From Lachnospiraceae bacterium (GTDB taxonomy: Bacteria; Bacillota; Clostridia; Lachnospirales; Lachnospiraceae), in contig JAAWCS010000017.1 in the NCBI GenBank assembly GCA_022793375.1, positions 1 to 44,214 on the forward strand: 44,214 nt of DNA. The letters run 5' to 3'. This document shows positions 3,583 through 33,190 of the stretch, piece by piece. Position 1 is the stretch's first letter; each line of letters opens with the position of its first letter. The notes beneath the pieces were generated by a model. The model saw only the letters and a program-made list of their open reading frames with translations, was not told where the DNA came from and ran no database searches. A program made the translations under genes and the position numbers.

Positions 3583-3622
3583 CCGGGATTTTTATTATGG
3601 TTTGCGTCTGAATTTTAAATTG

Positions 3623-5188: not shown

Positions 5189-5252
5189 GGGGCGTTTCCT
5201 TTCTGTTCCAACGTGCCGGTGTCTGCCTGGTGCGGCAACACATTTGGTTTGT

Positions 5253-14249: not shown

Positions 14250-14960
14250 CTATTCTCTCAGGGCCGTCAGATATCCCTTATATTTCTCAATGCATCCCGT
14301 AAACAGCCGTACCGCCCCTTCCGCGTCCCCGTTGCGGATATATTCCGTCGTGCGCGCCAGCACCTCATACGTCTGCCGACGCCCGATATACTCGCAGTAA
14401 TCCGTCCAGGCAGACACCGACGGGGTAAAAAACGCATTCATAATAAAAGGGGACACACAGTTCCCGCTCAGAGAAACAACCGCTTTTCGGTAGGCAAACA
14501 GCGCCGCCGCAAACGTCGCCGCCTCCAGCGAAATTGCTTTTTTTACTTCCTCCTGCAGCGCCTCCAGCCTGCGGATATGCTCCGGATTTTGCTGCCGGCA
14601 AAGCGCCCTGAGCGCCGGGCATTCCAGATAGACGCGGGTATCCAGAAGGCTGATCAGCATTTTTGTATCCAGTACGCCGCCCTGGTTGCGCACAATCGCC
14701 AGCAAGGTATCCAGATTGCCGGTGCTTGTATAATCCGCCACGTACACGCCCTTGCGCGACACTACATCCAGAAAACCGATCCGTGCCAGTTCCCGGATGC
14801 CTTCATGAACGATCGTCTTGCTGATTCCCATCGTATCCGCCAGTTCCCGTTCCGTGGGCAGACGGTCGCCTGGTTTTAGTTCGCCGGATAAGATCATCCC
14901 CTCCATCTGGGACAGAAACAGTTCTTTGATAGAGGGAGCCGTAATTCGTTTAAAAGCCAA
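14250..14960 (-). CDS. GntR-family regulator, FadR-like
   Basis: About 236 residues. A winged helix-turn-helix (SGELKPGDRLPTERELADTMGISKTIV, read in two pieces) fills residues 20-75, and an all-helical effector domain follows. The metal-binding histidines of FCD domains are not seen, so the effector pocket is closer to FadR itself, which binds acyl-CoA; that is an analogy, not proof. Start choice: TTG at 14960 lies 9 bases after GGAA; GTG at 14969 is also possible. A longer frame to 15029 starts without a ribosome binding site and would overlap the region next to the operator. A FadR-type palindrome at 15035-15045 suggests self-control and control of the divergent cluster. Confidence 0.88.
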   Translation of the reverse strand: MAFKRITAPSIKELFLSQMEGMILSGELKPGDRLPTERELADTMGISKTIVHEGIRELARIGFLDVVSRKGVYVADYTSTGNLDTLLAIVRNQGGVLDTKMLISLLDTRVYLECPALRALCRQQNPEHIRRLEALQEEVKKAISLEAATFAAALFAYRKAVVSLSGNCVSPFIMNAFFTPSVSAWTDYCEYIGRRQTYEVLARTTEYIRNGDAEGAVRLFTGCIEKYKGYLTALRE

Positions 14961-15034
14961 TGGCGTCACTTCCTTTTCCCTTGTCCTCTTTTCCCAAACT
15001 ATATCATGCCCGGAAAGCTCCGTCAACAAAAATC

Positions 15035-15158: not shown

Positions 15159-15833
15159 ATGCCCAACGATATCCGCATCATCGAAGTAAAACGCAGTATT
15201 TTTGACGATAACGACAAAGACGCCGCACGCCTGCGGGCCGAGCTGAAGGAGAAACAGGTTTTCCTTTTAAACCTGATGTCTTCCCCCGGCTCCGGTAAGA
15301 CCACCACCCTTTTGGCGCTGGCCAGGCTCCTTTCCGGCCGCATCCGGATGGGCGTCCTGGAAGCAGACATCGATGCCAGCGTAGATGCCGAGGCAATGGC
15401 CGCCGCCGGCGTCAAGTCCATTCAGATCCACACCGGCGGCATGTGCCACCTGGATGCCGATATGACCCGCCAGGGGCTTTACGAATTCGGCCTTGACGAC
15501 GCCGAGCTGGTTATTCTCGAAAACGTCGGCAACCTGGTCTGCCCCGCCGAATTTGACACCGGAGCCGTCAAAAACATGACGATCCTCTCCGTTCCCGAAG
15601 GTGACGACAAACCGTTAAAATACCCTCTCATGTACGAAAAATGTGACCTCTTAGTCATCAACAAGATGGATGTCCTGCCCTATTTCGATTTTGATCTGGA
15701 AAAGGCCGCCGCTTATGCCAAAGCGCGTAATCCACACATCGAAATCCTTCCGATCTCCGCCAAAACCGGCGAAGGAATGGAAGCCCTGGCCGAGTGGATC
15801 CTCTGCCAGGTTGCAAGCTGGCGAGAAGGATAG
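15159..15833 (+). CDS. hypB: HypB-like nickel-insertion GTPase
   Basis: 224-residue GTPase of the HypB family, which loads nickel into [NiFe] hydrogenase with HypA. Motifs are the P loop SSPGSGKTT (42-50), the metal-site CHLDA (Cys96, His97), ENVGNLVCP (Cys128) and the guanine-specificity NKMD. The three metal ligands of the E. coli G domain are thus kept, while the histidine-rich or CXXCGC N-terminal tail of some HypB proteins is absent. The ATG at 15159 follows GGGAGG; an upstream open extension has no such site. It is the first gene of the cluster. No hydrogenase gene is present, so its client is probably one of the cluster's own enzymes. Confidence 0.9.
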   Translation: MPNDIRIIEVKRSIFDDNDKDAARLRAELKEKQVFLLNLMSSPGSGKTTTLLALARLLSGRIRMGVLEADIDASVDAEAMAAAGVKSIQIHTGGMCHLDADMTRQGLYEFGLDDAELVILENVGNLVCPAEFDTGAVKNMTILSVPEGDDKPLKYPLMYEKCDLLVINKMDVLPYFDFDLEKAAAYAKARNPHIEILPISAKTGEGMEALAEWILCQVASWREG

Positions 15834-15905
15834 GCATGCCGACCGGGAATTCAGCCCCGCAAAGCATACGGCTCCAAACAAAAAAATGAACCAAGGAGAA
15901 CGAGT

Positions 15906-16676
15906 ATGGAAAAGCACTCCCCCAAAATCCTTGCCGTTGCCGGCAAAGGCGGCGTCGGAAAAACATCTGTGGCTGCTACTTTAGTCCGCCTGCTTACCGA
16001 AGCCCATCCCGATCAACGAATCCTTGCCATTGATGCCGACCCTGCCGTCGGTCTCTCCACCGCTCTCGGTATCGAGGTTCGGACCACCATCGACGATATC
16101 CGCAAGGCCGTCGTTTCCACTGCCCAAAGCGGCGATACAAAAAGCGCTCTTGAGCTTTTGGGCGAGGCTCGCTACCGTATTTTCGACGCGCTCACTGAGA
16201 CCGACGGCTTCAGCTTCATCGCCATCGGCCGCCCGGAGACCGCGGGCTGTTACTGCAAAATCAACTCCTATTTAAAAGAAGTCATCGGCATCCTCGCAGA
16301 ACATTTTGACTACATCGTCATCGACGGCGAAGCCGGCATTGAGCAGATCAACCGCCGCGTCATGGAAAAAGTCACCCACCTTCTTCTGATTACGGATTCC
16401 AGCAAAAAAGGAATTCAGGTCGTCCGGACCATAAAAAAGGTCGCCGACGAGCTTGTCCTGTATGAGCGGGCCGGACTCATCGCCAACCGCCTGCCCTCTT
16501 TGGATATTCAAGCCCATTTAGATACCGGCGGCATTCCCCTCTTAGCCTGTATTCCCGCGGATACGTCCCTGGCGGAATTCGACCTCAAAGGAGAAAATGT
16601 CTTTTATCTGCCAAAGCAATCCGCTATCGTCCAGGGCGTAATGGAAGCCATGAACCAATGGGGAGGTATCCTATGA
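15906..16676 (+). CDS. cooC: CooC-like nickel-insertion ATPase
   Basis: 256-residue MinD/ParA-type ATPase of the CooC group, which helps insert nickel into CO dehydrogenase. The deviant Walker A motif is GKGGVGKTS (13-21), and the switch region contains DADPAVGLS. RPETAGCYCKIN carries Cys115-Tyr-Cys117, which corresponds to the CXC nickel-binding motif of CooC. Later DGEAGIEQIN matches the Walker B region. AAGGAG precedes the ATG at 15906. The stop overlaps the start of the next gene by 4 bases (ATGA), showing coupled translation. No CO dehydrogenase catalytic subunit is encoded in the window. Confidence 0.88.
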   Translation: MEKHSPKILAVAGKGGVGKTSVAATLVRLLTEAHPDQRILAIDADPAVGLSTALGIEVRTTIDDIRKAVVSTAQSGDTKSALELLGEARYRIFDALTETDGFSFIAIGRPETAGCYCKINSYLKEVIGILAEHFDYIVIDGEAGIEQINRRVMEKVTHLLLITDSSKKGIQVVRTIKKVADELVLYERAGLIANRLPSLDIQAHLDTGGIPLLACIPADTSLAEFDLKGENVFYLPKQSAIVQGVMEAMNQWGGIL

Positions 16677-17860
16677 AAGACCTGAAGCATCTGTACTATT
16701 TCGAAAAGCTCCTTGAGGATGCCCATAACGAGCTGATACAAAAAGCCCAGGAACAAGGCCGCAAATGCATTGCCACTCTCTGTGAAAACATTCCCGAGCC
16801 TCTTTTAAACCTGCCCGGGAGTTTTTCTGCGCGTCTGCGCGCCCCTCGTACCGGCTCCATGGACATGGCCACCTACTACATGACCAGCTTCCTCTGCGAA
16901 TACACAAGAGCCCTGCTGGAACGCGCGATGGAGGGCGGCTACCAATTTGCCGACTGTCTGATCGTACCCGACGGCTGCTCCATGTTAAACCGCTGCGCCG
17001 AAAACATGGAACTGCTAAATACCATGCAAAAGGAGCACTTTTTCCATGAATACATGGAAATCCCCCTGAAAGCCAATGACAACGGCCTCAATCTCTACGT
17101 CCTGCAGTGCCGAAACCACATATTAAAACCTCTGGCAAAAGCATTCGGTCTTGATACCTCCGACGATGCCCTGCGCCAGGCCGTACAAGAACACAACGAA
17201 CTTTGCCGCCTGATTCGTCAAATCGGGGAATTCCGCAAAGAAAACGCGCCCCGGATTACCGGCTACGAATTCCATATTCTTACCCTGGCCACCTATGCCG
17301 CGCCCAAAGACCTGCTCCTCCCCTACCTGCGTGAAACCCTCGAGGAACTGGCCGGCCGAAAGCCCGACGAAAAGCCCTCCTGCCGGATCCGCGTCTTGTT
17401 AGCCGGTTCGGAAGTGGACGACATGGATTTGATACGCCTGATTGAAGAATCCGGCGCTTATGTCTGTGCCGACCGCTTCTGCTACGGCTCTTTTCCCGGA
17501 CGCGATCCCCTTGTGTTAAACGACGAAGAAGACGCCCTCACCCAAATCTGCCGTCAGTACATGTACCGCGGGCAATGCGCCCGCTATATGAACCAGGAGA
17601 AAATATCGGAACGGCGCGCCTACATCGACGCACTGGCAAAAGAATACCGTGCCGACGGAATCATCTGCCAGCAGATGAAATTCTGCGATCCCTGGGCCTA
17701 TGAACGCACGGTCGCAACCCACGTCCTGCGAACCGACTATCATTACCCCGTACTGTCGATCGACCGCCCCTACGCCGCAGGCAGCTTTGGTCAGCTTCGC
17801 ACCCGCGTTCAGGCCTTTGTTGAAAGCGTAGAGCTCAAAAAAATCCAGGGAGGTGCCTAA
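16673..17860 (+). CDS. 2-hydroxyacyl-CoA dehydratase-like subunit (first)
   Basis: 395-residue protein of the HgdB/BcrC/FldB superfamily, whose members bind a [4Fe-4S] cluster and take electrons from an ATP-dependent activase. Cysteines likely to be ligands are in PDGCSMLNRC (about 101-107), ICRQYMYRGQC (about 293-303) and MKFCDPW (about 343), matching the positions of cluster cysteines in the family. The length is normal. The ATG overlaps the CooC stop; an earlier in-frame start at 16658 would overlap it more and is less likely. With the next gene it should form a two-subunit complex. Because nickel chaperone genes flank it, its metal site may differ from plain dehydratases. The substrate is unknown. 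Confidence 0.85.
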   Translation: MKDLKHLYYFEKLLEDAHNELIQKAQEQGRKCIATLCENIPEPLLNLPGSFSARLRAPRTGSMDMATYYMTSFLCEYTRALLERAMEGGYQFADCLIVPDGCSMLNRCAENMELLNTMQKEHFFHEYMEIPLKANDNGLNLYVLQCRNHILKPLAKAFGLDTSDDALRQAVQEHNELCRLIRQIGEFRKENAPRITGYEFHILTLATYAAPKDLLLPYLRETLEELAGRKPDEKPSCRIRVLLAGSEVDDMDLIRLIEESGAYVCADRFCYGSFPGRDPLVLNDEEDALTQICRQYMYRGQCARYMNQEKISERRAYIDALAKEYRADGIICQQMKFCDPWAYERTVATHVLRTDYHYPVLSIDRPYAAGSFGQLRTRVQAFVESVELKKIQGGA

Positions 17861-17862
17861 TA

Positions 17863-19413
17863 GTGGGAAAACAAATCGGAAGCGAACGCCTGGGAGACCT
17901 GTATACCAGCGGAAAGGTCAAAAAACGCCGGGAGTGGCGCGGCATAAAAGACACCCTCTACGACTACTCCCGTTGGCTTCGCATCATGGGAATCCTGACC
18001 AGATTCATTATAAAGCCGCGTAACGTCAAGGCCTTCTTCCGCTACCGCTGGATGGCCAATTACCTGGCCGCCCCCATGATGGTGGACCGACATACTCAGG
18101 GGCTGCGGGGACCTCAGCTGCGCATCGCTCACACGGAATTCGACCTCGTCATGGAGGACGTAGCCAAACTTTTGGACAGCCTTTTTCGCGGAGACCGCCG
18201 CATCGGAAATGATACCAAGTTTTCTCAAAAGGTCGTGCTGATGGATGAAAACGAAATGACCGCCGTCATGATGGGCTTTCCTACCCTGAAGGGGCTGAGC
18301 CGCGAAACGCCGGCCGTATATGTCTCCGTACTCCTGAACCAATATGCGGCCTGTCACTACATCGACGTAGCCCAGGAATTCGGCCTGCCGGGAGATGTCT
18401 GTCCGATGCCTGAAGCCGAAGCCGGCGTCTCCATCGATGACGACTTCCCTGTCCTGGGCGCCTGCGCCATCCAGTGCAACACTACCTGCGACGGCTCCCT
18501 TATGGGCAACGGCATTATTTCCAGGCGTCTGGAGCTTGAGGATAAAATCCCCTGCTTTCAGCTGGCTGCGCCTCTGCGCCACCAGCAAGACGACGTTCAG
18601 GAATACGCCGCCCAGGAAATCCGCGACGCCATCCGTTTTATTGAGCAGCATACCGGTGAAACCTGGGACTGGGACTACTACTTTGAATGCGCCAAACGCG
18701 TCAACGAATCCACCCGCCACCGCCTCGAATGGCTGGAAATGAACAAAACCGACTACCCGCAGGTCTTTGGCTCCAACCTGGCTCTTTATACCGAGACCAA
18801 CTATATGGCGATCTGCGGCAAAGTTCCCGCCTTCGTTGAAGCCGACCGCAAGATTTCCGCTCTCGCCGAGCAGGCATACAAAAATAAAACTATGGTAGTA
18901 AAGGAATACCGCCACCGCGCGATCATCTGGGGCGTCCAGTCCCACTTTTATTTCGACTTCCTGATCTGGCTGCAAAACTGCTGGGGAATCCTGCCCCTCA
19001 CCGATATGCTTTCCATGGTTTCCACCAAGGTGCTTTCGGAAAACGATAAAGAACAGGCCATCTACGATATGGCCTGGCTCACCGAAAACATGATTATGCG
19101 CAACCGTACCCATGGCGGCTACAAAGTCCTGCTCGATGAGCTGTGGGAATTCTGCGAAGAATTCCGCGCCGATACGGTGATTCTGTGGGAGCATATCAGC
19201 TGCAAGGCTTTAGACGGCATGCACGGTCAGTTTGAAGAAAAAGCCCGCGAAAAAGGGATTCACCTGATCTGGGTCGATCACGATCTCTTTGACCCCCGCG
19301 TCATCTCCCGCCAGGAAATCCGCGACCAGGTCAACCGCTACATGCGCGCCGTTTTCCGCGAAGAACCTCTAGACCCCACGCTGGAAGTCATCCAGGACGA
19401 ACATTCGTGGTAA
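17863..19413 (+). CDS. 2-hydroxyacyl-CoA dehydratase-like subunit (second, long)
   Basis: 516-residue partner of the preceding subunit, from the same superfamily but longer than the usual 380-480 residues, with a basic N-terminal region of about 80 residues before the core. Cysteine-rich segments are GLPGDVCP, LGACAIQCNTTCDGS and HISCKALDG near the C-terminus; the middle one, CAIQCNTTC, is unusually dense. The start is GTG at 17863, 2 bases after the previous stop, with GGGAGGTG just upstream. No CoA-transferase or 2-hydroxyacid dehydrogenase gene is near, which argues against ordinary amino-acid fermentation. The double-cubane cluster reductases are another possible relative. Confidence 0.8.
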   Translation: MGKQIGSERLGDLYTSGKVKKRREWRGIKDTLYDYSRWLRIMGILTRFIIKPRNVKAFFRYRWMANYLAAPMMVDRHTQGLRGPQLRIAHTEFDLVMEDVAKLLDSLFRGDRRIGNDTKFSQKVVLMDENEMTAVMMGFPTLKGLSRETPAVYVSVLLNQYAACHYIDVAQEFGLPGDVCPMPEAEAGVSIDDDFPVLGACAIQCNTTCDGSLMGNGIISRRLELEDKIPCFQLAAPLRHQQDDVQEYAAQEIRDAIRFIEQHTGETWDWDYYFECAKRVNESTRHRLEWLEMNKTDYPQVFGSNLALYTETNYMAICGKVPAFVEADRKISALAEQAYKNKTMVVKEYRHRAIIWGVQSHFYFDFLIWLQNCWGILPLTDMLSMVSTKVLSENDKEQAIYDMAWLTENMIMRNRTHGGYKVLLDELWEFCEEFRADTVILWEHISCKALDGMHGQFEEKAREKGIHLIWVDHDLFDPRVISRQEIRDQVNRYMRAVFREEPLDPTLEVIQDEHSW

Positions 19414-19422
19414 ATTTACATA

Positions 19423-19438
19423 CGCCGCTTGCGCGGCG
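19423..19438 (+). repeat. Hairpin between dehydratase-like and activase genes
   Basis: CGCCGC-TTGC-GCGGCG is a perfect 6-base stem, followed closely by the short palindrome GCCATCATGGC. It sits in the only sizeable gap (55 bases) between these two genes and lacks a T run, so it may set transcript stability or relative expression rather than end transcription. Confidence 0.55.
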
Positions 19439-19468
19439 CGCCATCATGGCATGAAAGGAGCCGCAAAT

Positions 19469-20260
19469 ATGAACTACTACGGAGGCTGCGATTCCGGCAG
19501 CACTTATACCAAATGTGTTATCCTTGACGAAAAAGGCCGCATGGCCGCCAACGTAACGCTGCGCAGCCGGATCAATTCCGTTTTAAGCGCCCAGGAAGCC
19601 CTGGATCAGGCTGTCACTCAGGTTCCCGGTCTAAAAAGCGCCAAGGACCTCGCTTACCTGGTCGGTACCGGCTACGGGCGCAACAAAGTCCCTTTTGCCG
19701 ATGAAAATATTTCCGAAATCAGCTGTCACGCCATGGGAGTCCATGTCGCCGCCCCGCAGGTCAAGGCCGTTATCGACATTGGCGGTCAGGATGTAAAGGG
19801 CATTGCCGTGGACAAAGACGGAACCGTGCAGAACTTCGCCATGAACGATAAATGCGCTGCCGGGACCGGCCGCTTTTTCGAAGCCATGGCCCGGGCCTTT
19901 GAAATGGAATTAAGCGAATTTTCCCGCCTGTCCCTCACGGCAAAAAACGTGATCCCAATCACGTCCCAGTGTACCGTCTTTGCTGAATCCGAAGTCATCT
20001 CCCTGGTTGGCGAAGGCAAGCCCATGGAGGAAATCGCCGCCGGAATCGAACTGTCCGTCGCCAAGCGCTGCTTCGTCATGGCAAAAAAAGCCGGCGCCGC
20101 CGACTGTATCGCCCTCACCGGGGGCTGCGCCAAAAACGACGGACTCAAAGCCGCTATCGAAAAAGTGCTGCACTTAAAAGTCATCGAACTTCCCATCGAC
20201 CCCCAGCTGATGGGCGCGTTGGGAGCCGCTGAGTTTGCCCGCCAAAAAGCGGCACGATAA
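19469..20260 (+). CDS. ATP-dependent activase, HgdC/BadF family
   Basis: 263-residue member of the BadF/BadG/BcrA/BcrD ATPase family; HgdC-type activases form a dimer around one [4Fe-4S] cluster and drive electrons into the dehydratase with ATP. The actin-fold phosphate loops are GGCDSGSTYTK and DIGGQDVK. Both cluster cysteines are present: Cys129 in NDKCAAGTGRF and Cys168 in TSQCTVFAESE. The C-terminal ATP site has LTGGCAKN. I use the ATG at 19469, 7 bases after AGGAG, rather than the one at 19451. The activase fits the two subunits encoded before it, which supports a working electron-transfer system rather than a relic. Confidence 0.93.
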   Translation: MNYYGGCDSGSTYTKCVILDEKGRMAANVTLRSRINSVLSAQEALDQAVTQVPGLKSAKDLAYLVGTGYGRNKVPFADENISEISCHAMGVHVAAPQVKAVIDIGGQDVKGIAVDKDGTVQNFAMNDKCAAGTGRFFEAMARAFEMELSEFSRLSLTAKNVIPITSQCTVFAESEVISLVGEGKPMEEIAAGIELSVAKRCFVMAKKAGAADCIALTGGCAKNDGLKAAIEKVLHLKVIELPIDPQLMGALGAAEFARQKAAR

Positions 20261-20284
20261 CCATCGCTTACGAGGAGGATACAT

Positions 20285-20452
20285 ATGCAAGGATTCCTAC
20301 ACACCCTGTTCATCATCGCCGTTGTCATTGCCTGTCTTTTTGCCGCGACCTTTGCCGTCTATTTCTTCAACCTCGATATGAAGCTGACGGCCGCGCTGGC
20401 TCCGCTGTTTGAAAAGCACTATGACAGAATCGACCGCGATAAACACCTGTAG
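20285..20452 (+). CDS. Small single-pass membrane protein
   Basis: A 55-residue open frame with a strong GAGGAGG site 6 bases before its ATG and only 5 bases before the next gene. Residues 5-29 (HTLFIIAVVIACLFAATFAV in the core) are hydrophobic and would span the membrane once. The tail is charged (EKHYDRIDRDKHL). I do not recognise the family. Its position inside a tightly packed operon and its good ribosome binding site make it likely to be real. It may tether the reductase to the membrane or act with an unseen partner; this is inference. Confidence 0.75.
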   Translation: MQGFLHTLFIIAVVIACLFAATFAVYFFNLDMKLTAALAPLFEKHYDRIDRDKHL

Positions 20453-20457
20453 CCACC

Positions 20458-21186
20458 ATGAAGCTATATGATGAAATCATCGCAGACTGCCGGCGTCTGC
20501 TGGATACAGACTACAGCCGTCCTCTGCCGGTCGGCCCGGCCGACTGGCCGCAGGTTTCCGACCGCAGCATGATCCTGCGAAGCGACATGGCCTACGAGCT
20601 GGGCGGTGAACACCTCCCCGCCATCGGCTGTACCCTGGTCACCGCCGACAGAGCACTTGTACCTGCCGACCGGCTTACACTGCTGGGACCGGATCTCCCT
20701 CAGATTCATGCCGACGTTCCCTACGCCCGCATCGCCCTGATCCGCACAGACGACGCAAGCCTGAAAGAAGGTCCCGCCCTGTACCGCGCCATCCGCGACC
20801 TGGAACATACCCGCTACCACTTTTATCCCCGGGGCTTTATGATGCGCATCAGCGCATCCCACCAAAAAGAAAGTGTACGAATTGCCAAACAGGCGCTGCA
20901 GGACGGACTCTCTTTTGAAAAAACCGGAAACCGGATGATATCCGCTTTTCGCAAAAATCCCTGCGTCAGAGCCGTACAGCTTTTCTACATAACCCAGGAG
21001 GATTTCGACTACCAGGCGCTCTCACGCTATACCAAAGAGGCCGAGCGCATTACAAAGACCATCGACCACATCGCAAAAACCAGCCTTATGGACTGCCGGT
21101 CCTGCAGCCTGCAGTCGGTCTGCGACGAAGTGGAGGGACTCAAGGATCTTCACTTTCGCGGACAAAAAGCCTTAAAGCTGCAATGA
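20458..21186 (+). CDS. Acetyl-CoA synthase beta-like protein, truncated form
   Basis: 242-residue protein. From memory it resembles the middle part of the AcsB/CdhC subunit of CO dehydrogenase/acetyl-CoA synthase: the element TLLGPDLPQIHADVPYARIAL, a central RDLEH region, then MMRISASHQKESV and VQLFYITQEDFDYQAL. The C-terminal DCRSCSLQSVC (Cys213, Cys216, Cys222) sits where the synthase starts its A-cluster cysteines, but the fourth cysteine and the nickel-binding CGC motif are missing because the protein ends. It is therefore not a synthase; it could be a scaffold, metal carrier or electron-transfer subunit. ATG at 20458 overlaps the small gene's vicinity with only a weak ribosome binding site, so coupling to it is likely. 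Confidence 0.65.
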   Translation: MKLYDEIIADCRRLLDTDYSRPLPVGPADWPQVSDRSMILRSDMAYELGGEHLPAIGCTLVTADRALVPADRLTLLGPDLPQIHADVPYARIALIRTDDASLKEGPALYRAIRDLEHTRYHFYPRGFMMRISASHQKESVRIAKQALQDGLSFEKTGNRMISAFRKNPCVRAVQLFYITQEDFDYQALSRYTKEAERITKTIDHIAKTSLMDCRSCSLQSVCDEVEGLKDLHFRGQKALKLQ

Positions 21187-21236
21187 CCCGCAGCGCCAAA
21201 CCAAAACCATCGCCAACAAGCAAGGAGGAACCCCCT

Positions 21237-24047
21237 ATGGCATTCGATATGGAACAATACAATCGCTGGCCTGCCAATCACAAGCATGACAAAGAGCCCA
21301 GCAAAAAAATCATCGCCCTCGGCAAAAAAATCACTGACGTAGCCGCCCATATGATCGGCGGCGTCAAAGTCGAAGATCCCGAATACTGGGGTCTCGCCGA
21401 AATCATCACCGAAGAAATGGCCGAAGTCGGTCTGGCAATGAAAAAGCGTACTCCCTACACCTTTGCCGAACTCTGCCAATTAAACCGCATCGACAAGGCC
21501 GGCGAAGAAAAATTTCAAAAGCTCCTTGATGAAATGAGCTACATCGGCCTTCTCGAATACGACTACGGCTACCACTACGACCACCATGGCCGCACCCGCG
21601 AACAGACCGAGCGCCGCTACATTCTGCCCATGTTCGTACCCGGCTCCGCCGAACTCTTCAACATGGAAGAACTCCCCGACGGCAGCAACCCCCGCCTGCG
21701 CGACCATCCTGACGTGGCTTCTTTCTTCGAGCGTATGACCTTTATTCCTCTGGCCGGAATCACCCAGATGGTTCCTCCCGGCGGCGCCGGCATCGGCATG
21801 CACGTCATCCCCGTCGAAAAAGCCATCTCCATGGAAAATCAGTCCGTGGATCTGGAGCATCTTTCCTACTGGCTGAAAAAATACGAAGGGCATATCGGCG
21901 TCGGCCGCTGTTCCTGCCGCGCTTCCCGCAAAGTCCTCGGCGAAGGCGTAGCCGACGACGATTACGGCTGGTGCATCGGCGTCGGCGACTTCGCCGACTA
22001 TTGCCGCGAAACCGGAAAGGGCCATGACATCACCTACGACGAGGCCATGGCAATCCTCAAGCGTGCCGAGGAAAACGGCTTCGTCCACCAGATTACCAAC
22101 ATCGACGGCGAAAACAAAATCTTCGGTATCTGCAACTGCAACGTAAACATCTGCAACGCCCTGCGCACTTCGCAGCTGTTCAACACACCGAATATGTCCC
22201 GCTCCGCCTATGTCGCACACGTCGACAAGGATAAATGCGTCGCCTGCGGACGCTGCGTCGAATACTGCCCTGCCGGAGCCACCCGCCTCGGCCAAAAGCT
22301 CTGCCAAAAAGACGGCAGTCAAATTCAATACCCCAAACAGGAGCTGCCCGACGCCGTCAAATGGGGCAAAGACAAATGGGACCCCGACTACCGCGACAAC
22401 AACCGCATTAACAGCCACAAAACCGGTACGTCTCCCTGTAAGACCGCCTGCCCGGCCCACATTGCCGTTCAGGGCTACCTGAAGAAGGCTTCTCAGGGTA
22501 AATACACCGAAGCCCTGGCCCTCATCAAAAAACAGAATCCCTTCCCGGCCGTCTGCGGACGTATCTGCAACCGCCGCTGCGAAGACGCCTGCACCCGCGA
22601 CTCCATTGACCAGGCCGTCGCGATCGACGCTGTCAAAAAATTCATCGCCGAGCAGGACCTGCATGCAAAGACCCGCTATATCCCGCCTATCGTCATCCCG
22701 GCCAGCATCCATATGGATCGCTTCCCGGAGAAAATCGCCGTCATCGGCGGCGGCCCGGCCGGATTAAGCGCCGCCTACTATCTCGCCGAAAAAGGCTACC
22801 GTCCCACAGTCTTTGAGAAAAACGAAACCCCCGGCGGCATGCTCCGCTACGGCATCCCTTCCTACAAGCTTGAAAAGGACGTCATCGCCGCCGAAATCGA
22901 CGTCATGCGTGAAATGGGCGTCGAGATCCGGACCGGGATCGAAGTCGGCAAAGACATCACCCTAAATGAACTGCGCGCCCAAGGCTACAAAGCCTTTTAT
23001 ATTGCTATCGGCTGCGGCGCCGGACGACTTCCCGGTATCCCCGGAGAAACCGCCGACGGCGTCCTGACTGCGATCGATTATCTGCATAACGCCGGCACCG
23101 GCAATACCGACTATGCCGGCCGTGTCGTCGTAGTCGGCGGCGGCAACGTTGCTATCGACGCTTCCCGCGTCAGTATCCGAAGCGGCGCTTCCCAGGTGAC
23201 CATGCTCTGCCTGGAAGCGGAAAAAGAAATGCCCGCCTCCGCCGAAGAAGTCCGCGAAGCCACACAAGACGGCGTAGCAATCCAATGCGGCTGGGGGCCC
23301 AAAGAAGTCCTCGTAAAAGACGGCCAGGTAACCGGCATCACCTTCCAAAAATGCCTCTCCGTCTTTGCTCCCGACGGCCGCTTTGCTCCGTCCTACGACG
23401 AAAACGATACAATCACTCTGGCCTGCGACCGCGTCATTTTCGCTATTGGTCAAAAAACCGTCTGGGGCGATCTGCTGAAAGACGAGGCCGTCGAATTCAA
23501 AGGCCCGGCCATCGTCGCCGACAAGCTCACCTTCCAGACCACGAAGCCGGATCTGTTCGTCGGCGGCGACGTTTATACCGGTCCCAAATTTGCAATCGAC
23601 GCCATTGCCGCCGGCCATTATGCGGCCGAATCCCTGCACCGTTACGTCCACGATGCCCATATGACAATCGGCCGCAACCGCTGGGAATTCAACGAACTTG
23701 ACAAAGAAAACATCCGCGTCGAAAGCTACGATAACTCCTCCCGCCAGATCGAAGGGACAGACCCCGCGATCCCGGCCAAATCCTTTAAAGACGCGCATCT
23801 GACCCTCACCGAAGAACAGGTGCGCAAAGAAACCGCCCGCTGCTTAGGCTGCGGCGCCACGATCGTAGACGCCAATAAATGTATTGGCTGCGGCGTATGC
23901 ACCACTAAGTGTGAATTCGACGCCATTACCCTGCACCGGGATCATCCCGAATGCACCAAGATGGTGACGGCGGAAGATAAGTTTAAGCATATTATTCCGT
24001 ACCAGCTGAAGCGGGCCGTAAAAATTGTCACCCATAAAAAGAGCTAA
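21237..24047 (+). CDS. FAD/iron-sulfur oxidoreductase, GltD-like fusion
   Basis: 936-residue multidomain redox protein. An N-terminal iron-sulfur region has GRCSCRAS (about 224), a GWC segment and ICNCNVNIC (about 298-305). A ferredoxin-type motif CVACGRCVEYCP follows (about 332-343). A GltD-like half begins with CKTACPAHI and CGRICNRRCEDAC (about 400-452), then FAD-binding VIGGGPAGLSAA (about 500) and the NAD(P)H-binding VVGGGNVAIDASR (about 631). The C-terminus carries another cluster site, CIGCGVCTTKC. It probably moves electrons from NAD(P)H to a low-potential acceptor such as the activase. AAGGAGG precedes the ATG at 21237; an upstream in-frame ATG at 21183 overlaps the previous gene and lacks a site. 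The donor and acceptor are inferred. Confidence 0.9.
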   Translation: MAFDMEQYNRWPANHKHDKEPSKKIIALGKKITDVAAHMIGGVKVEDPEYWGLAEIITEEMAEVGLAMKKRTPYTFAELCQLNRIDKAGEEKFQKLLDEMSYIGLLEYDYGYHYDHHGRTREQTERRYILPMFVPGSAELFNMEELPDGSNPRLRDHPDVASFFERMTFIPLAGITQMVPPGGAGIGMHVIPVEKAISMENQSVDLEHLSYWLKKYEGHIGVGRCSCRASRKVLGEGVADDDYGWCIGVGDFADYCRETGKGHDITYDEAMAILKRAEENGFVHQITNIDGENKIFGICNCNVNICNALRTSQLFNTPNMSRSAYVAHVDKDKCVACGRCVEYCPAGATRLGQKLCQKDGSQIQYPKQELPDAVKWGKDKWDPDYRDNNRINSHKTGTSPCKTACPAHIAVQGYLKKASQGKYTEALALIKKQNPFPAVCGRICNRRCEDACTRDSIDQAVAIDAVKKFIAEQDLHAKTRYIPPIVIPASIHMDRFPEKIAVIGGGPAGLSAAYYLAEKGYRPTVFEKNETPGGMLRYGIPSYKLEKDVIAAEIDVMREMGVEIRTGIEVGKDITLNELRAQGYKAFYIAIGCGAGRLPGIPGETADGVLTAIDYLHNAGTGNTDYAGRVVVVGGGNVAIDASRVSIRSGASQVTMLCLEAEKEMPASAEEVREATQDGVAIQCGWGPKEVLVKDGQVTGITFQKCLSVFAPDGRFAPSYDENDTITLACDRVIFAIGQKTVWGDLLKDEAVEFKGPAIVADKLTFQTTKPDLFVGGDVYTGPKFAIDAIAAGHYAAESLHRYVHDAHMTIGRNRWEFNELDKENIRVESYDNSSRQIEGTDPAIPAKSFKDAHLTLTEEQVRKETARCLGCGATIVDANKCIGCGVCTTKCEFDAITLHRDHPECTKMVTAEDKFKHIIPYQLKRAVKIVTHKKS

Positions 24048-24098
24048 ATACGGACAGGGCCGGATTTAGTGAGGCGCGCAAGTGACGCCAGGCTCCCG

Positions 24099-24167
24099 CT
24101 GTCTTTCCTGTCCGGGCGCGCTCTCGCTCCGTTCCAAACGCAGCGAGAGCGGGTCCGGGAAGGACAG
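24099..24167 (+). repeat. Long imperfect stem-loop between oxidoreductase and hypA
   Basis: Outer arms CTGTCTTTCC (24099-24108) and GGAAGGACAG (24158-24167) pair with one G-T wobble. Inner arms CGCTCTCGCT (24119-24128) and AGCGAGAGCG (24142-24151) pair perfectly. There is no T run after it, so it is not a simple terminator; it may protect the transcript or lower hypA expression. The rest of 24048-24256 shows no gene, and no clear promoter for hypA. Confidence 0.6.
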
Positions 24168-24256
24168 TCACAAGCCGGGCGTCCCTCTGCTTCCCCCTTT
24201 AATAACTCTCTGTAAATCAATGACATTCTGTCATCCCATTTGAAAGGAGCCTCCCC

Positions 24257-24601
24257 ATGCACGAACTGGGCGTCGTCTTTTACGTTGTCCGCGACGTAAA
24301 AAAAGTAGCCGAAGAAAACAATGTCAAAAAAGTAACCTCCGTAACTCTGCAAATCGGTGAAGTCTCCGGCATTCTCCATGACTACCTGACCGACTGCTGG
24401 AACTGGGCCAGAAAAAAAGAACCTGTCATGGCAGAAGCCGATCTTCTCATCGAGTCGATCGACGCTGTTTCCTTCTGCGAAGGCTGCGGGCAGGAATATC
24501 CCACCGTGCGGTACAAAAAGATCTGCCCCTACTGCAGCAGCGAGCATACTTTTCTGCGCCGGGGGAATGAGTTTCTGATTAAAGAGATTGCGGTGTATTG
24601 A
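24257..24601 (+). CDS. hypA: HypA-like nickel metallochaperone
   Basis: 114-residue HypA family protein that hands nickel to HypB and the target enzyme. The N-terminal Met-His-Glu, whose backbone and His2 bind nickel, is intact (MHELGVV). The zinc site has two Cys-x-x-Cys pairs, CEGCG and CPYCSS. The length is standard. AAAGGAG lies 8 bases before the ATG. It is the last gene of the plus-strand cluster, 209 bases after the oxidoreductase, and converges on the ABC permease gene. With HypB and CooC it gives the cluster three nickel-handling proteins and no classical nickel enzyme. Confidence 0.92.
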   Translation: MHELGVVFYVVRDVKKVAEENNVKKVTSVTLQIGEVSGILHDYLTDCWNWARKKEPVMAEADLLIESIDAVSFCEGCGQEYPTVRYKKICPYCSSEHTFLRRGNEFLIKEIAVY

Positions 24602-28354: not shown

Positions 28355-28753
28355 TTAAGCCGGCAGTTCTCCCACCGCTTCACGAATCAATTCCCCCATG
28401 CTCAAGTCCCTCGTCCCCACCACAATATTATCGCAGTGATTCACCGGAATTAAAATCCGCCTTGCACCGCTCTGCGCCACCGCCAACGCCATCCCCGGCG
28501 TAATCTCCCCAAACAGCGCATCCGCGATCACAATCCCGATCGGTCCCAAAATCACATCGGCTCCCCGGCAATTCACCACAACCGCATTCTCTCCTGTCGC
28601 CGCGTGATCCGCCCCGGCCTTCAGCATCGCCGAGGTCGCCACCGTATTCGTTCCCACCGCCGTAATCACCGCCTCCGGCCGTGCTTCCCGAACAGCCGGA
28701 ATCAGCTGCTTCCCAATTCCGCCGCCCTGCGAATCAATAATCAGCACGTTCAT
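28355..28753 (-). CDS. DUF3842-family protein
   Basis: 132-residue protein of a small conserved family of unknown role (DUF3842 by recollection). The N-terminus VLIIDSQGGGIGKQL looks like a nucleotide-binding loop of the Rossmann or P-loop kind, and AVVVNCRGADVILGPIGIV continues an alternating strand-helix fold. It is cytosolic, with no signal or membrane segment. The start overlaps the 3' end of vanT by 20 bases, with GGAGGAGG inside vanT, so it is co-expressed with the van genes. This link is worth noting because I know of no resistance role for the family. Confidence 0.8.
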   Translation of the reverse strand: MNVLIIDSQGGGIGKQLIPAVREARPEAVITAVGTNTVATSAMLKAGADHAATGENAVVVNCRGADVILGPIGIVIADALFGEITPGMALAVAQSGARRILIPVNHCDNIVVGTRDLSMGELIREAVGELPA

Positions 28754-31184
28754 GTATCCTGTCCTCCTCCGACACCACCGCTTCGTCTTTCGTCATATAC
28801 CGCTTCAGGCGGCCGCCCATCCGGCACAAAAGCTCATTGGTAATCGTATCGCACCAGCCGGCTGCCTCCTCGGCCCGAATCTCTTCCTCGCCGTCGCGGC
28901 CGATCAGCGTCACTACGTCTCCGGACCGGACCGCGTCGCTGCCGCCGCTCTCTTCCTCTTCCCATTCGTCCCAATTAAGGATTTCCGTACCGAGCAGCTT
29001 ACTGCCCTCCGGCCTGCTCTCTGCGGATTCTTCGCCTGTTACATCCACCAGCAGCTGATCCATGCATACACGCCCCACGACCGGATACCGCCTTCCGCGG
29101 ATCAGCACCTGGGCACGCCCGTTTCCGTAGCTGCGCGGGATTCCGTCCGCATAACCGATCGTCACCGTTGCCACCTGCCGCCGCCCCGGCGCCCGCCAGG
29201 CCCGGCCGTACCCCAGCTCCATTCCTGGCTGCACGGTACGCACCATTGCCACCCGCGCCCGCACCGCCATCACCGGTTCCAGTCCAAGTTCCAGCTGCGG
29301 CCGATCCTCTGCCGTCTCATACGCGCCGTACAGAGCAATCCCCATCCGCACAAAATCGTATTTCAGCTGCGGATAATTCAGCAGGCCGAAACTGTTCTGG
29401 ATGTGATAGCAAAGCCGCTCGCCGTCCCCTCGGTTTAACTGGATGCAAAGCTTCTCAATATACCCCCGCATCGCCTCAAACCGCTTTAACTGCTGCCTCG
29501 TATATTCCACGTCCGAATCCGACCGGCTGCCCGCCACACACAGATGGCTGAATACGCCCTCGATCCGAATCGCCGGCAGCAGGAAAATCTCCCGCACCGC
29601 CTCAATATCCCCGGCGCTCACGCCAAGGCGGTGCATCCCCGTATCCAGCGCCAGATGCGCCCGCAGAGACCCGTTCGCACAGCCGAAACGGTTCATCGCC
29701 ACCGCGTACTCTTCATCGACAATCGTCTGGATTAAATCGTTCTCATACACCCCCGGCCATTCCTCCGGACTCGTATAACCCAAAATCAGGATATTGCCGC
29801 GAATCCCCGCCTGCCGCAGCGAAATTCCCTCCGCTGCCGTCGCCACGGCAAAATCCGTAATCCCCTGCTTTTGCAGATGCAAAGACACCGGAACCGCCCC
29901 ATGGCCGTATGCGTCGGCTTTGACCACCGCCATCACCCGGCTTCCCGGTGAAAGCACCTGACGGAACTGGTTTACATTGCCTGAAAGCGCCGCCAGATCT
30001 GTCTCCACCCAGGCCCGGCCGCCCGCTGTCTTTTTTTCCAGCTGCCGCTTCTCTTCCATTTGTTTCGCGTCCTCCTTCTCTTCTTCCCACGACATATGCT
30101 CTTGTTCCGACTTCACCCAGATGGACGGCGCCCGCCGCCGGCGTCTACCCGTATCCGTAAATAAAGACAAAATATATGCCGCTCCCAGCGAAGCGACTGT
30201 CACGCACAGATAGTGAACCAGATGGTTCTCCACCAAAAGCGCCTCCGTTTTCGTGACTCCTGCAAAGGCCCGCACCACGACAATGCACAGCGGATGCAGC
30301 AAATACACCCACAGAGCAACCGCCCGCAGTTTCGGCTTTTGTGCAGCCGGCAGCCGCACCAGCAGCCCGAATAAAAACGTCATAACAACCGGCAGCGTCA
30401 GATACATGCTGTCGTGATGCGGCCAGCCCGCCGCATGCACCAGGAGTCCCTCTGCCGTCATTCCTGCCAGTGAAACGGCCAAACCGATCCCCCAAAATAA
30501 AAATTCCTCCTGCAGCCGCCCGCGCATGCCCTGTTCTGGTAAAGCCCGCTCCCGCGTCTTTAGCCTGCCGCCGCCTGCTACGTGCCGCTTCCTTCCCATC
30601 TGCGCCCCCAGAAGCAGAAACAGCGGCGCCAGAAACACCCCGTTGCGCGTATTTTCCATTATGGCAAACAGACCTGCATACAGCGACTCAAGCGCCGGTA
30701 TCTGTGCCGCCAGCCCGTAATAACTGTCGCCCAGGACTCCCACAAGATAAAGAGTCGCCGCCGCAAAGAGCGCCTTTTTGCTCCCCAGCCACCGCCAAAG
30801 CCCCCAGGAAATTAGAAGGCCTGTAATCACCCCCGGCAAATACCACAGATGATAAAAGGTCCCCCCGATCAGCAGCTCTCTCAGCGCCGTGCCAAATGTA
30901 AGGCCCGCAAGCTTCCCCGCATACCAGTTGACCGGCAGATACATCACAATCGCCGCCAGATACCAGCGCAGGTTCTTTGCCAGCGATTCCTGTACCCGTT
31001 CCCAGCGCCCCTGCGCCAATACAAAATACCCGGTGACCATAAAAAAGAAGGGAACCGCCACCCGCCCCACAATCCGCGTCAGCATCAGATCGCCCCAAAA
31101 GCTGAAATCCTCTAACGGCGAAATATGGATTGCCGCTACCAGAAATGCCGCTATGATCCGAAACCAGTCTAAAGCTCCCATCAA
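28734..31184 (-). CDS. vanT: VanT-type membrane serine/alanine racemase
   Basis: 816-residue two-domain protein. Residues 1-340 form an acyltransferase-3-like membrane domain with about ten hydrophobic segments, starting LDWFRIIAAFLVAAIHISP. Residues about 375-816 are a PLP-dependent racemase with VVKADAYGHG (the lysine binds PLP) and the catalytic tyrosine region IGYADGIPRSYGNG. VanT makes D-serine for D-Ala-D-Ser termini. It is about 100 residues longer than the enterococcal VanT I recall, with charged insertions near 200-230, in the linker, and near 735-760. Its ATG overlaps the stop of vanXY (ATGA). Plain alanine racemases lack the membrane domain. Confidence 0.9.
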   Translation of the reverse strand: MMGALDWFRIIAAFLVAAIHISPLEDFSFWGDLMLTRIVGRVAVPFFFMVTGYFVLAQGRWERVQESLAKNLRWYLAAIVMYLPVNWYAGKLAGLTFGTALRELLIGGTFYHLWYLPGVITGLLISWGLWRWLGSKKALFAAATLYLVGVLGDSYYGLAAQIPALESLYAGLFAIMENTRNGVFLAPLFLLLGAQMGRKRHVAGGGRLKTRERALPEQGMRGRLQEEFLFWGIGLAVSLAGMTAEGLLVHAAGWPHHDSMYLTLPVVMTFLFGLLVRLPAAQKPKLRAVALWVYLLHPLCIVVVRAFAGVTKTEALLVENHLVHYLCVTVASLGAAYILSLFTDTGRRRRRAPSIWVKSEQEHMSWEEEKEDAKQMEEKRQLEKKTAGGRAWVETDLAALSGNVNQFRQVLSPGSRVMAVVKADAYGHGAVPVSLHLQKQGITDFAVATAAEGISLRQAGIRGNILILGYTSPEEWPGVYENDLIQTIVDEEYAVAMNRFGCANGSLRAHLALDTGMHRLGVSAGDIEAVREIFLLPAIRIEGVFSHLCVAGSRSDSDVEYTRQQLKRFEAMRGYIEKLCIQLNRGDGERLCYHIQNSFGLLNYPQLKYDFVRMGIALYGAYETAEDRPQLELGLEPVMAVRARVAMVRTVQPGMELGYGRAWRAPGRRQVATVTIGYADGIPRSYGNGRAQVLIRGRRYPVVGRVCMDQLLVDVTGEESAESRPEGSKLLGTEILNWDEWEEEESGGSDAVRSGDVVTLIGRDGEEEIRAEEAAGWCDTITNELLCRMGGRLKRYMTKDEAVVSEEDRIHERADY

Positions 31185-32002
31185 GATTTTCTCCAGATTG
31201 TCAGGATCAAACCATTTTGATTATCACCGGACACGCTGTACAGCTCGCTGTCCTTTGGCAGCTCCACACGCATTGTCTCCTCCACCGCTTCGATATACCG
31301 CACCTCAATGCGGTTGTTATGTCTCTCCCAGTATACGCCTTTTGGCTGCTTTCGCAGAAAATCCGTATACTCCTCCAATACAAGCCCCTGTTCCTCCATA
31401 ATCATCGAATGCGGATAACCGACATAGCGAAAATGCCATGGTTCATGGGCAATGCCCGTGAGTTCCTCCTTCTCTGCCGGATAGCGCAGGATAAAACCAA
31501 ACCGGGCCGCTTCCTGCCGAAAGCGCCCGCAAATCCCCTCTTCCGGAAAAGACGGCCGAATAAAATCCAGTTCTTTACCGCCTTCGCCCAGGTCAATCGC
31601 GTAGCCGGTCTGATGCTCGCTGCGGTCAGGAAGCGCTACATATCTGCCGGTAAATTCCGGCCCGTTTTCCTCCAGGGATTCCCGGTAAATCTGCTCCTGT
31701 TCCCGGCGGCTGCGATAGCCGCTGACCGGCACAATCCGGCCAAATGCCGAAAGGCTCTCCAGTCCCCGGCAAAGCGCCATGGCCGCCGCGCTTTCCAGGC
31801 GAATCTGCGGGAAGGACCGATCTATGACTGCCAGTTCCATCTCTTCTGCCGGTTTTGTTTCGGCTTCTTCCGGCGACCGGGCCCACATGCAAAGACAGCC
31901 GGCCGCTTCCGGCTGAGCGGCCCTGTGCAGCGCATATTTCCGGTTCACCAAAATGAGCGGCCCCCGACAGCAGTCCTCTCTATTTAAAACCAATGGTTTC
32001 AT
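31181..32002 (-). CDS. vanXY: VanY/VanXY-type D,D-peptidase
   Basis: 273-residue zinc D-Ala-D-Ala peptidase. The active-site pattern is SGYRSRREQEQIY, SEHQTGYAIDLG (His and Asp zinc ligands) and EPWHFRYVG (catalytic Glu and third zinc His), as in VanY and VanXY. No signal peptide or N-terminal membrane anchor is seen, so it should act in the cytoplasm like VanXY, removing D-Ala-D-Ala and D-Ala-ended precursors. A unique N-terminal 55 residues and a C-terminal 60-residue extension lie outside the core. It overlaps vanG and vanT by 4 bases each. VanY alone is possible, but the operon context favours VanXY. Confidence 0.87.
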   Translation of the reverse strand: MKPLVLNREDCCRGPLILVNRKYALHRAAQPEAAGCLCMWARSPEEAETKPAEEMELAVIDRSFPQIRLESAAAMALCRGLESLSAFGRIVPVSGYRSRREQEQIYRESLEENGPEFTGRYVALPDRSEHQTGYAIDLGEGGKELDFIRPSFPEEGICGRFRQEAARFGFILRYPAEKEELTGIAHEPWHFRYVGYPHSMIMEEQGLVLEEYTDFLRKQPKGVYWERHNNRIEVRYIEAVEETMRVELPKDSELYSVSGDNQNGLILTIWRKS

Positions 32003-33060
32003 TCCGTCTCCTTCCCCTCGTCTAACAGGCGGTTTACTACCTCCTCAAAGGAGATTCCCGCCGCCTTCATCATACTGGGGAAACGACTGTGAGACGTAAA
32101 GCCGGGAATCGTATTCACTTCGTTAAAAACGATCCGCTCCTCTGGCGTCAAAAACATATCCACACGGGCAAACCCGCTGCAGCCCAGCGCGCGGTAAATT
32201 ACCTGCGCCGCCTCCTTAATGCGCTCTGCCGTCTCCGGCCGGATGCGCGCCGGCACATAAATCCGCGAACTTTTCAGCGTATATTTCTCCGTATAATCAA
32301 AAAATCCGTGCGTCAGCTCAATCTCGTCCACCTCGCCGACCGTCAGCTTCTGCTCTCCCATCACCGCGCAGCCAACCTCAAAGCCGTCGATCGCCTCTTC
32401 CATAATCACTTCCACGTCGTGGCAGAACGCGTCGCGCACCGCCCCTGCCAGTTCTTCCGGCGCCTTCACTTTTGTTACGCCAAACGACGAACCGGCACGC
32501 ACCGGCTTGACAAACAGCGGATAACCGATCTTCTCTGCCGCTTGTTTCCACTCTTCCTCCTGGGTGTCCATGTTCTTTGGCTGTACAAATACCACCGACG
32601 CCGGCGCCTCCACCCCGGCCAGCTCTGCCAGCTTATGCGCCCGGTCCTTATCCATGCAGAGCGCCGAACACAGCGTATTGCAGCCGATCAGCCGAATCCC
32701 TGCCAGCTCAATCAGCCCCTGTACCGTACCGTCCTCCCCGTTTTTGCCATGCAGCACCGGAAGCGCCATGTCCAGACGCGTCACAACGACCTGGCCCTTG
32801 TGAAACTCCAGCAGCCCGCAGGTCTCCCGATCCGGCGACAAAACTGCGCGCACGCAATCCGTTTCATTGCACCAGGTATCCCGCAGAATCTTTTCCACGT
32901 CGCCGTAATATCGATACCAGCGTCCCTCCCGGTCAATGCCGATCAGTACCTTCTCATATCGCTCTTCATCCACCGCCGCAATCACCGCGCCGGCCGATTG
33001 CAGCGACACCTCGTATTCCGTCGATTTTCCCCCGAACAGGATAGCAACCTTTCTCTTCAT
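31999..33060 (-). CDS. vanG: VanG-type D-alanine:D-serine ligase
   Basis: 353-residue ATP-grasp ligase of the Ddl family. It begins KVAILFGGKSTEYEVSL and has VLHGKNGEDGTVQGL, YPLFVKPVRAGSSFGVTKV and FNEVNTIPGFT. The omega-loop region FFDYTEKYTLKSS followed by IYVPARI resembles VanG rather than VanA, which agrees with the serine racemase gene in the same operon. D-Ser specificity is inferred. I start it at the ATG at 33060 after GGTGG, since the frame upstream runs through hairpin repeats. It is the first gene of vanG-vanXY-vanT-DUF3842; no vanR or vanS gene is in the window. Confidence 0.88.
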   Translation of the reverse strand: MKRKVAILFGGKSTEYEVSLQSAGAVIAAVDEERYEKVLIGIDREGRWYRYYGDVEKILRDTWCNETDCVRAVLSPDRETCGLLEFHKGQVVVTRLDMALPVLHGKNGEDGTVQGLIELAGIRLIGCNTLCSALCMDKDRAHKLAELAGVEAPASVVFVQPKNMDTQEEEWKQAAEKIGYPLFVKPVRAGSSFGVTKVKAPEELAGAVRDAFCHDVEVIMEEAIDGFEVGCAVMGEQKLTVGEVDEIELTHGFFDYTEKYTLKSSRIYVPARIRPETAERIKEAAQVIYRALGCSGFARVDMFLTPEERIVFNEVNTIPGFTSHSRFPSMMKAAGISFEEVVNRLLDEGKETE

Positions 33061-33072
33061 CTTATCCACCCT

Positions 33073-33086
33073 GCGGCTTTCGCCGC
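33073..33086 (-). repeat. GAAA-loop hairpin just before the vanG ribosome binding site
   Basis: On the minus strand GCGGC-GAAA-GCCGC, a perfect 5-base stem with a GNRA tetraloop, ends 2 bases before GGTGG. It could affect vanG translation. Confidence 0.5.
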
Positions 33087-33102
33087 TTCCTTTCTTGTTC
33101 TT

Positions 33103-33190
33103 ACCCGCATATTCAGGACATTCTGCGTATCCTCTGCGGTACTCCTTATCTTTCATGTTCTCAGGACATGCCGGCTGTCCTCGCCGGCGC
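33103..33190. repeat. Diverged copies of the two-hairpin repeat in the vanG leader
   Basis: Two diverged units near 33103 and 33154 share RTATTC(TC)AGGACAT and TGCGGT with the family at 1-137 and 34341-34440. The first keeps the smaller hairpin in altered form (GTATCC/GGTAC around TCTGC). Confidence 0.5.

Follow-up and report, generated by a model that had tools for sequence, protein, structure and literature searches.

A predicted ATP-driven double-cubane-type reductase cluster with an acetyl-CoA-synthase-domain protein in a Lachnospiraceae genome and its gut and rumen relatives

Introduction

ATP-driven double-cubane reductases reach potentials that few enzymes can. Among the described systems, class I benzoyl-CoA reductase (BCR; BzdNO together with BzdPQ) and DCCP with its reductase are closest to the locus reported here, and for BzdNO it was stated that no such reductase had been assigned a defined role in catabolism before (PMC11971306). 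A third related system is IsrA of Acetobacterium wieringae (VUZ27132.1), a putative isoprene reductase, which contains CxC pairs at residues 180/182 and 254/256 and an unassigned N-terminal domain of ~270 residues; its authors suggest that these cysteines might bind nickel, and of 988 IsrA homologues 73% have HypA and 56% have HypB no more than five genes away (PMC10134865). In this study we analyse nine genes, hypB-cooC-dehA-dehB-act-tm55-acsL-oxr-hypA, at 15159..24601 of a Lachnospiraceae bacterium contig (JAAWCS010000017.1, assembly GCA_022793375.1; the window is the whole stretch of 44,214 nucleotides).

A sequence-only reading had placed these nine genes on one strand in this order, which the gene calls in the window confirmed, and had treated them as one unit. 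The latter did not hold: the conserved core is cooC-dehA-dehB-act-tm55-acsL, six genes and not nine. On balance, we find it probable that the operon encodes a membrane-anchored, ATP-driven reductase of the double-cubane/class I BCR type, consisting of this core, a flavoenzyme and a nickel pair, which would reduce a hard C=C bond. A literature search for the gene combination, covering papers under open licences, returned no description, in line with the earlier statement that no described enzyme with this set was known.

The reductase core

Both DehA and DehB, the dehydratase-like subunits of the sequence-only reading, match PF06050, but their cysteines carry the signature of double-cubane proteins and BCR. 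Six cysteines of DehA (C42, C80, C107, C275, C307 and C343) align with all six ligands of the [8Fe-9S] double cubane in BzdN, 36, 73, 100, 263, 293 and 327, and C180 of DehB aligns with BzdO C95 (BzdNO ligands as given in PMC11971306). The six DehA cysteines are retained in 82-83 of 83 aligned sequences and the three DehB cysteines C180, C209 and C447 in 87-88 of 88, the cysteine counts throughout referring to sequences above a length limit (plus 60 bits in fetched regions), with shorter or truncated copies dropped. The activase was said to have both cluster cysteines, and indeed C135 and C174 are present in 43/43 aligned sequences. As judged by these residues, and with the DehB ligands aligned more tentatively, the DehA/DehB pattern would be the signature of class I BCR, with the three DehB cysteines fitting a [4Fe-4S] site. 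The sequence supports the earlier proposal that ATP drives low-potential electrons to a core of the dehydratase family.

An ordinary 2-hydroxyacyl-CoA dehydratase was set aside for this core, as DehA has the six double-cubane ligands while HadC has P35 and A261 at two of these positions. Moreover, the NCBIfam equivalog models score far below their cut-offs (DehA against HadC 85.8 of 700 bits, DehB against HadB 19.7 of 750 bits). The earlier view that the system stands apart from ordinary 2-hydroxyacyl-CoA fermentation is supported by sequence. The models of the double-cubane relatives stay below cut-off as well, with 86.1 of 453.8 bits for DehA against BzdN and, for the DCCP model NF040772 with a cut-off of 350 bits, 137.2 bits for DehA and 37.6 bits for DehB. 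In a tree with only four partial reference sequences, DehA forms its own clade on a long branch with 100% support, apart from BzdN, HadC, MbdN and DCCP. DehB carries extra helices in its N-terminal 45-80 residues, and its predicted structure is tied between HadB, DCCP and BzdO in a comparison that starts behind these residues and, for AcsL, ends before the tail.

Compared to class I BCR, the core shares the HGD-D subunit pair, with six cluster-type cysteines in one subunit and, more tentatively aligned, three in the other, and the BcrA/D-type activase. In contrast to the bzd-type reductase, it contains one activase gene and additionally a membrane peptide, an acetyl-CoA synthase (ACS) domain protein and CooC, and CoA-ester pathway genes were not seen in the surrounding window. 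With DCCP and its reductase it has the six double-cubane cysteines and the ATP-dependent activase partner in common; however, DCCP is a homodimer whereas DehA and DehB are two unlike subunits.

AcsL, CooC and the membrane peptide

The protein described before as resembling the ACS beta subunit has an ACS fold in its predicted structure, corresponding to ACS residues 316-506, but it covers one ACS domain only. A complete A-cluster comprises four cysteines plus a CGC motif in the C-terminal domain of ACS, a protein of ~730 residues (AcsB/CdhC). AcsL, in contrast, comprises 242 residues and has no remaining A-cluster domain but a tri-cysteine motif (CxxCx5C), with C213, C216 and C222, close to the C-terminal end, as the only invariant cysteines and the CxxC positioned about where the A-cluster domain starts. 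The P-loop ATPase is called CooC after the sequence-only reading, a name that no library model assigns; its CxC motif is present in 42/42 aligned sequences and presumably binds nickel. CooC-type ATPases mature carbon monoxide dehydrogenase (CODH)/ACS, and CooC would go with AcsL and not with the partner of HypA/HypB. The membrane peptide tm55 carries the motif YxFNLDMK in 21 aligned sequences and was found in 75 of the 77 loci that have room for it after dehB.

Distribution of the core

A DehB profile detected 428 relatives in the named genome collection, the best 80 of which were kept as loci, with gene presence called by score thresholds of our own. The closest named relatives are Lachnospiraceae metagenome-assembled genomes (MAGs), and the hosts as a whole are mostly MAGs, the titles of many of which mention the rumen or the gut, next to a few isolates such as Butyrivibrio sp. 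FCS014. They belong to Lachnospiraceae (including Butyrivibrio and Roseburia), Erysipelotrichaceae, Oscillospiraceae, Mogibacterium and Treponemataceae. Across the 80 loci dehA, dehB and tm55 are nearly constant, and many loci, above all in Butyrivibrio, contain these three genes alone. Both act and acsL are present in 31 loci, and cooC joins them in 28 of these; act without acsL and acsL without act were each observed in three loci. In 15 fetched genome stretches the complete order cooC-dehA-dehB-act-acsL was found ten times, with tm55 called before acsL in eight of the ten, and several of the 15 contain extra dehA-dehB copies nearby or elsewhere. As separate observations, L116, L118, L127 and L128 carry a second, diverged dehA-dehB pair beside the full cluster (dehB 32-34% identical to that of the window), and in P0121, a DehB relative of 690 residues, a stretch of ~170 residues is directly repeated within the protein, which may be an artefact of assembly.

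Fifty of the 80 loci, picked mostly for unlinked acsL (42 lack it in the locus), were checked genome-wide; acsL was found in 46 of the 50 genomes and was located elsewhere for 38 of the 42, where one match covers 30 residues at the end of a contig and another is split into two pieces, while the search found none in four MAGs. Within the order, acsL matches 14 of 295 genomes and dehB matches 20, and the strong dehB matches (E < 1e-130) are exactly the 14 acsL genomes, the other six being weak, generic family matches. Fisher's test for this co-occurrence gives p = 3e-24 over the 295 genomes, ignoring kinship. The genome-wide statistic covers acsL and dehB, and cooC, dehA, act and tm55 are tied in by neighbourhood; of the nine-gene association proposed for checking, the six-gene core is conserved and oxr, hypA and hypB vary.

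Across the phylum, the acsL profile matches six of 363 genomes, i.e., the window's own, four in frames of 734-781 residues that look like true ACS, and one short, distant match (genome G503), and strong DehB matches among the 363 were found in the window's genome only. A plasmid search with DehB gave no match. The sole match in a phage collection is MT837370.1 (L139), a 7-kb record deposited as 'Bacteriophage sp.' that contains the six-gene core in the same order at 83-5238 and is more likely a bacterial contig.

A second, distant setting

G503 belongs to another family of the phylum, and its DehB-like gene is too distant for the DehB profile. Its cluster (L137) comprises two acyl-CoA-dehydrogenase-like genes, a 594-residue protein, a DehA-like and a DehB-like protein, two activases, acsL and cooC, i.e., two HGD-D subunits and two activases in the BCR layout, the two activases as in BzdPQ. 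The DehA-like protein has all six cysteines, the DehB-like protein the three of DehB, AcsL the CxxCx5C and CooC the CxC motif. A tblastn search of the 20-kb stretch for tm55, oxr, hypA and hypB returned nothing of note (best E values 0.095 for oxr and 0.73 for hypA). Based on the composition of this cluster, the acsL-cooC pair recurs with a predicted double-cubane-type reductase in a second, distant setting, represented by one genome. The 594-residue protein at the cluster head (L137:14686-16470, minus strand), which adjoins the acyl-CoA-dehydrogenase-like genes, has no Pfam or NCBIfam match.

The oxidoreductase and its nickel chaperones

The 936-residue oxidoreductase Oxr consists of an N-terminal CxC domain, Fer4, DPD domain II and a FAD/NAD(P)H module, which is the IsrA-type (clade 9) architecture. 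Features in common with IsrA are an N-terminal domain that Pfam leaves unassigned, two CxC pairs at a spacing of 74 residues, Fer4 sites, the FAD/NAD(P)H module and HypA/HypB encoded nearby, and Oxr is called IsrA-type by domain layout and CxC spacing, not by sequence identity. Its cysteines C225xC227, C246 and C299xC301 are present in 25/25 sequences. An activase, a dehydratase-like subunit, CooC and AcsL are all missing from the isr operon as published.

The genes hypA and hypB follow oxr. None of the 80 loci has hypA without an IsrA-type oxr, while 23 of the 29 oxr loci have hypA, and hypB without oxr was seen only in L009 and L016, whose contigs end before the place of oxr. Since hypA follows oxr and not the core, and given the IsrA precedent (PMC10134865), HypA and HypB most simply would serve Oxr. 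The nickel-type chaperone assignment made earlier holds for HypA and HypB by family models, and in HypB the CH-Xn-C motif (C96-H97, C128) is retained with C96 in 9/10 and C128 in 10/10 sequences. In the window's genome (G000, 3.42 Mb, 92.6% complete) no match to HypD (PF01924) or to the CODH/prismane family (PF03063) was found; [NiFe]-hydrogenase maturation and a CODH/ACS system were set aside for this genome accordingly. Within the 14 core-bearing genomes, HypD is above cut-off in eight and a prismane-family match, which does not tell CODH and hybrid-cluster protein apart, is present in eight.

The position after acsL is not reserved for oxr. In other genomes, including Butyrivibrio sp. FCS014 (L127), it is occupied by a flavoenzyme of 687-767 residues, which in L120 is placed before cooC instead. 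Five of the six proteins scanned for this slot match BaiCD or the long bilirubin reductase best in NCBIfam, followed by OYE families, all below cut-off, and the sixth, another L120 gene, has no NCBIfam match. IsrA-like and OYE/BaiCD-like partners are both of C=C-reductase types, IsrA by proposal only.

These data lead to the strongest alternative, namely that two unrelated systems lie side by side, one comprising an IsrA-type enzyme plus HypA/HypB and the other a double-cubane reductase plus CooC/AcsL. Scoring the best three candidates per genome, oxr was found in at least 43 of the 295 genomes, i.e., in at least 11 of the 14 core-bearing genomes and in at least 32 of the 281 others, and it stayed below cut-off in three of the 14; together with hypA tracking oxr and not the core, this favors separate systems. 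However, oxr adjoins dehAB in several arrangements, including six of 33 loci longer than 12 kb without act, acsL and cooC, and its enrichment in core-bearing genomes has p = 5e-8 (ignoring kinship), so that we regard two separate systems as rather unlikely, though worth keeping in mind.

Alternative roles of the core

A distinctly less likely alternative is that the acsL-linked dehAB together with CooC and AcsL forms a cofactor assembly scaffold, similar to NifEN, for the stand-alone dehA-dehB-tm55 copies. Many genomes contain such stand-alone copies plus one acsL-linked copy, and acsL is single in most genomes, as this would suggest. However, the window's genome and seven others of the 14 have a single dehB match, and because there is only this one match the linked copy must work alone in the window's genome; moreover, linked and stand-alone copies keep the same cysteines. 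We also consider it improbable that AcsL with CooC is the catalyst itself, with a nickel site for one-carbon or acyl transfer (CO2, CO or acyl chemistry) that the reductase would feed: the ACS-domain fold, the invariant cysteines and the role of CooC-type ATPases would fit, but AcsL stops about where the A-cluster domain begins, the window's genome has no CODH/prismane match and stand-alone dehAB copies occur without adjoining acsL. Least probable is a core that acts, together with its activase, as an ordinary 2-hydroxyacyl-CoA dehydratase while the nickel genes are bystanders, since, despite PF06050 in both subunits, TIGR00241 in the activase and the tied DehB model, DehA keeps the ligands of which HadC lost two, the equivalog scores are far too low and no CoA-transferase or hydroxyacid dehydrogenase was identified in a scan of the ten neighbour clusters that recur most often, of which three gave no match at all.

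Several points weigh against a double-cubane/class I BCR-type reductase with a nickel-bearing partner. C209 of DehB lies exactly on DCCP C144 but on BzdO C129, one residue off the ligand C128, and C447, the presumed third ligand, is matched only via a weak stretch of MbdO. AcsL lacks the C-terminal ACS domain and thus a complete A-cluster, and the structure model shows no order for its tail (pLDDT < 50). Furthermore, the flavoenzyme is not invariant among core loci, and kinship among the sampled genomes inflates the co-occurrence statistic.

Proposed mechanism and substrate

For the double-cubane-type reductase a mechanism can be outlined, all steps of which rest on family knowledge and residues. 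NAD(P)H would reduce the flavoenzyme, and the electrons would reach the activase directly or via ferredoxin. The activase would spend ATP, lifting single electrons onto the double cubane of DehA, from which the open-site cluster of DehB may pass them to the substrate. CooC would load nickel at the tri-cysteine site of AcsL, HypB/HypA would load Oxr and tm55 would anchor the complex at the membrane.

The substrate might, as a guess, be a lipophilic diene or an unsaturated fatty acid, because the classifiable neighbouring flavoenzymes are C=C-reductase types (IsrA-like or OYE/BaiCD-like), a membrane peptide is present and the hosts include classical rumen biohydrogenators. Roseburia and Treponema are such biohydrogenators. 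The same holds for Butyrivibrio (PMC4478896), and an acsL of Butyrivibrio proteoclasticus is among the acsL matches. Strains with published biohydrogenation end products, grouped in Paillard 2007, are described in PMC4478896, and B. fibrisolvens MDT-5 is said to lack conjugated linoleic acid reductase (PMC12254105). The fatty-acid oxidoreductase was untraceable in databases for the authors of PMC4478896, and a linoleate isomerase gene was not traced in B. fibrisolvens INBov1 or other Butyrivibrio genomes (PMC6249431). The core could conceivably supply the machinery that is still missing for the biohydrogenation of fatty acids in gut and rumen: a BCR relative at the membrane, driven by ATP and assisted by nickel, would saturate isolated C=C bonds of unsaturated fatty acids, with an IsrA/OYE-like enzyme for the conjugated-diene step and the recruited ACS domain as nickel-bearing subunit; we rate this specific proposal as unlikely. 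Three points speak against a lipid substrate. The rumen fatty-acid reductase is reported to use NADH 1:1, with no ATP step described by the authors (PMC4478896). Oleate hydratase, taken as a fatty-acid marker, was detected in 0/14 core-bearing and 42/281 other genomes (p = 0.23). Moreover, Fukuda 2007 reportedly gives a different gene sequence for the conjugated linoleic acid reductase.

Gene layout and surroundings

The stretch from cooC through oxr is near-contiguous with intergenic gaps of -19 to 50 bases, while hypB is separated from cooC by 72 bases and hypA from oxr by 209 bases (Table 1). The starts of hypB and oxr are both backed by good ribosome-binding sequences. Of the 80 loci, seven have a relative of the divergent GntR/FCD-type regulator (68-76% identity) in the same upstream position and orientation, and L039 has a further full-length match at 33% identity. 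The regulator is likely that of the operon in close relatives.

Table 1. Features of the nine-gene operon and the adjoining regulator gene in the window.
Feature	Position	Strand	Basis
GntR/FCD-type regulator	14253..15029	-	Pfam PF00392 + PF07729; divergent from operon
hypB, nickel-type GTPase	15159..15833	+	TIGR00073 235 bits, cut-off 121; start picked by Shine-Dalgarno
cooC, CooC-type P-loop ATPase (presumed)	15906..16676	+	PF01656; P-loop GKGGVGKT; CxC C115-Y-C117
dehA, BzdN/DCCP-like, predicted [8Fe-9S] double-cubane carrier	16658..17860	+	PF06050 280 bits; six cysteines
dehB, BzdO/HadB-like, predicted [4Fe-4S] site	17863..19413	+	GTG start; three cysteines
act, HgdC/BcrA-D-type ATP-dependent activase	19451..20260	+	TIGR00241 223 bits, cut-off 125; C135 + C174
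tm55, single-helix membrane protein, motif YxFNLDMK	20285..20452	+	Kyte-Doolittle 2.75 over 19 residues
acsL, one ACS domain + CxxCx5C tail	20458..21186	+	ACS-domain fold in predicted structure
oxr, IsrA-type NAD(P)H/FAD/iron-sulfur oxidoreductase, 936 aa	21237..24047	+	PF07992, PF14691, Fer4
hypA, nickel-type metallochaperone	24257..24601	+	PF01155 103 bits, cut-off 28.9; MHE start, two CxxC

Many of the remaining genes of the window are housekeeping in appearance. In the window there was no Rfam match at gathering scores and no tRNA. A promoter scan gave 6 sites where 5.7 are expected by chance, and 24 terminator-like sites were counted with 13.5 expected. At 28737-33156 (minus strand), an acyltransferase/alanine-racemase fusion (816 aa), a VanY-type carboxypeptidase and D-Ala-D-Ala-ligase-like genes are consecutive by Pfam, a row that we take to resemble a VanC/VanG-type D-Ala-D-Ser module. 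Elsewhere in the genome, an open frame of 1438 aa (G000 C13:31291-33000) contains two BcrAD/BadFG ATPase domains and is perhaps a PlsA-like plasmalogen synthase.

Significance

As a summary, the core would represent a gut and rumen member of the double-cubane reductases with a constant membrane peptide. Apparently new is the recruitment of an ACS domain with its own nickel-type ATPase, a pairing that is repeated in a distant cluster. Two questions thereby become accessible to experiment, namely a use of nickel by double-cubane reductases and the identity of the system that acts on non-activated double bonds in the rumen.

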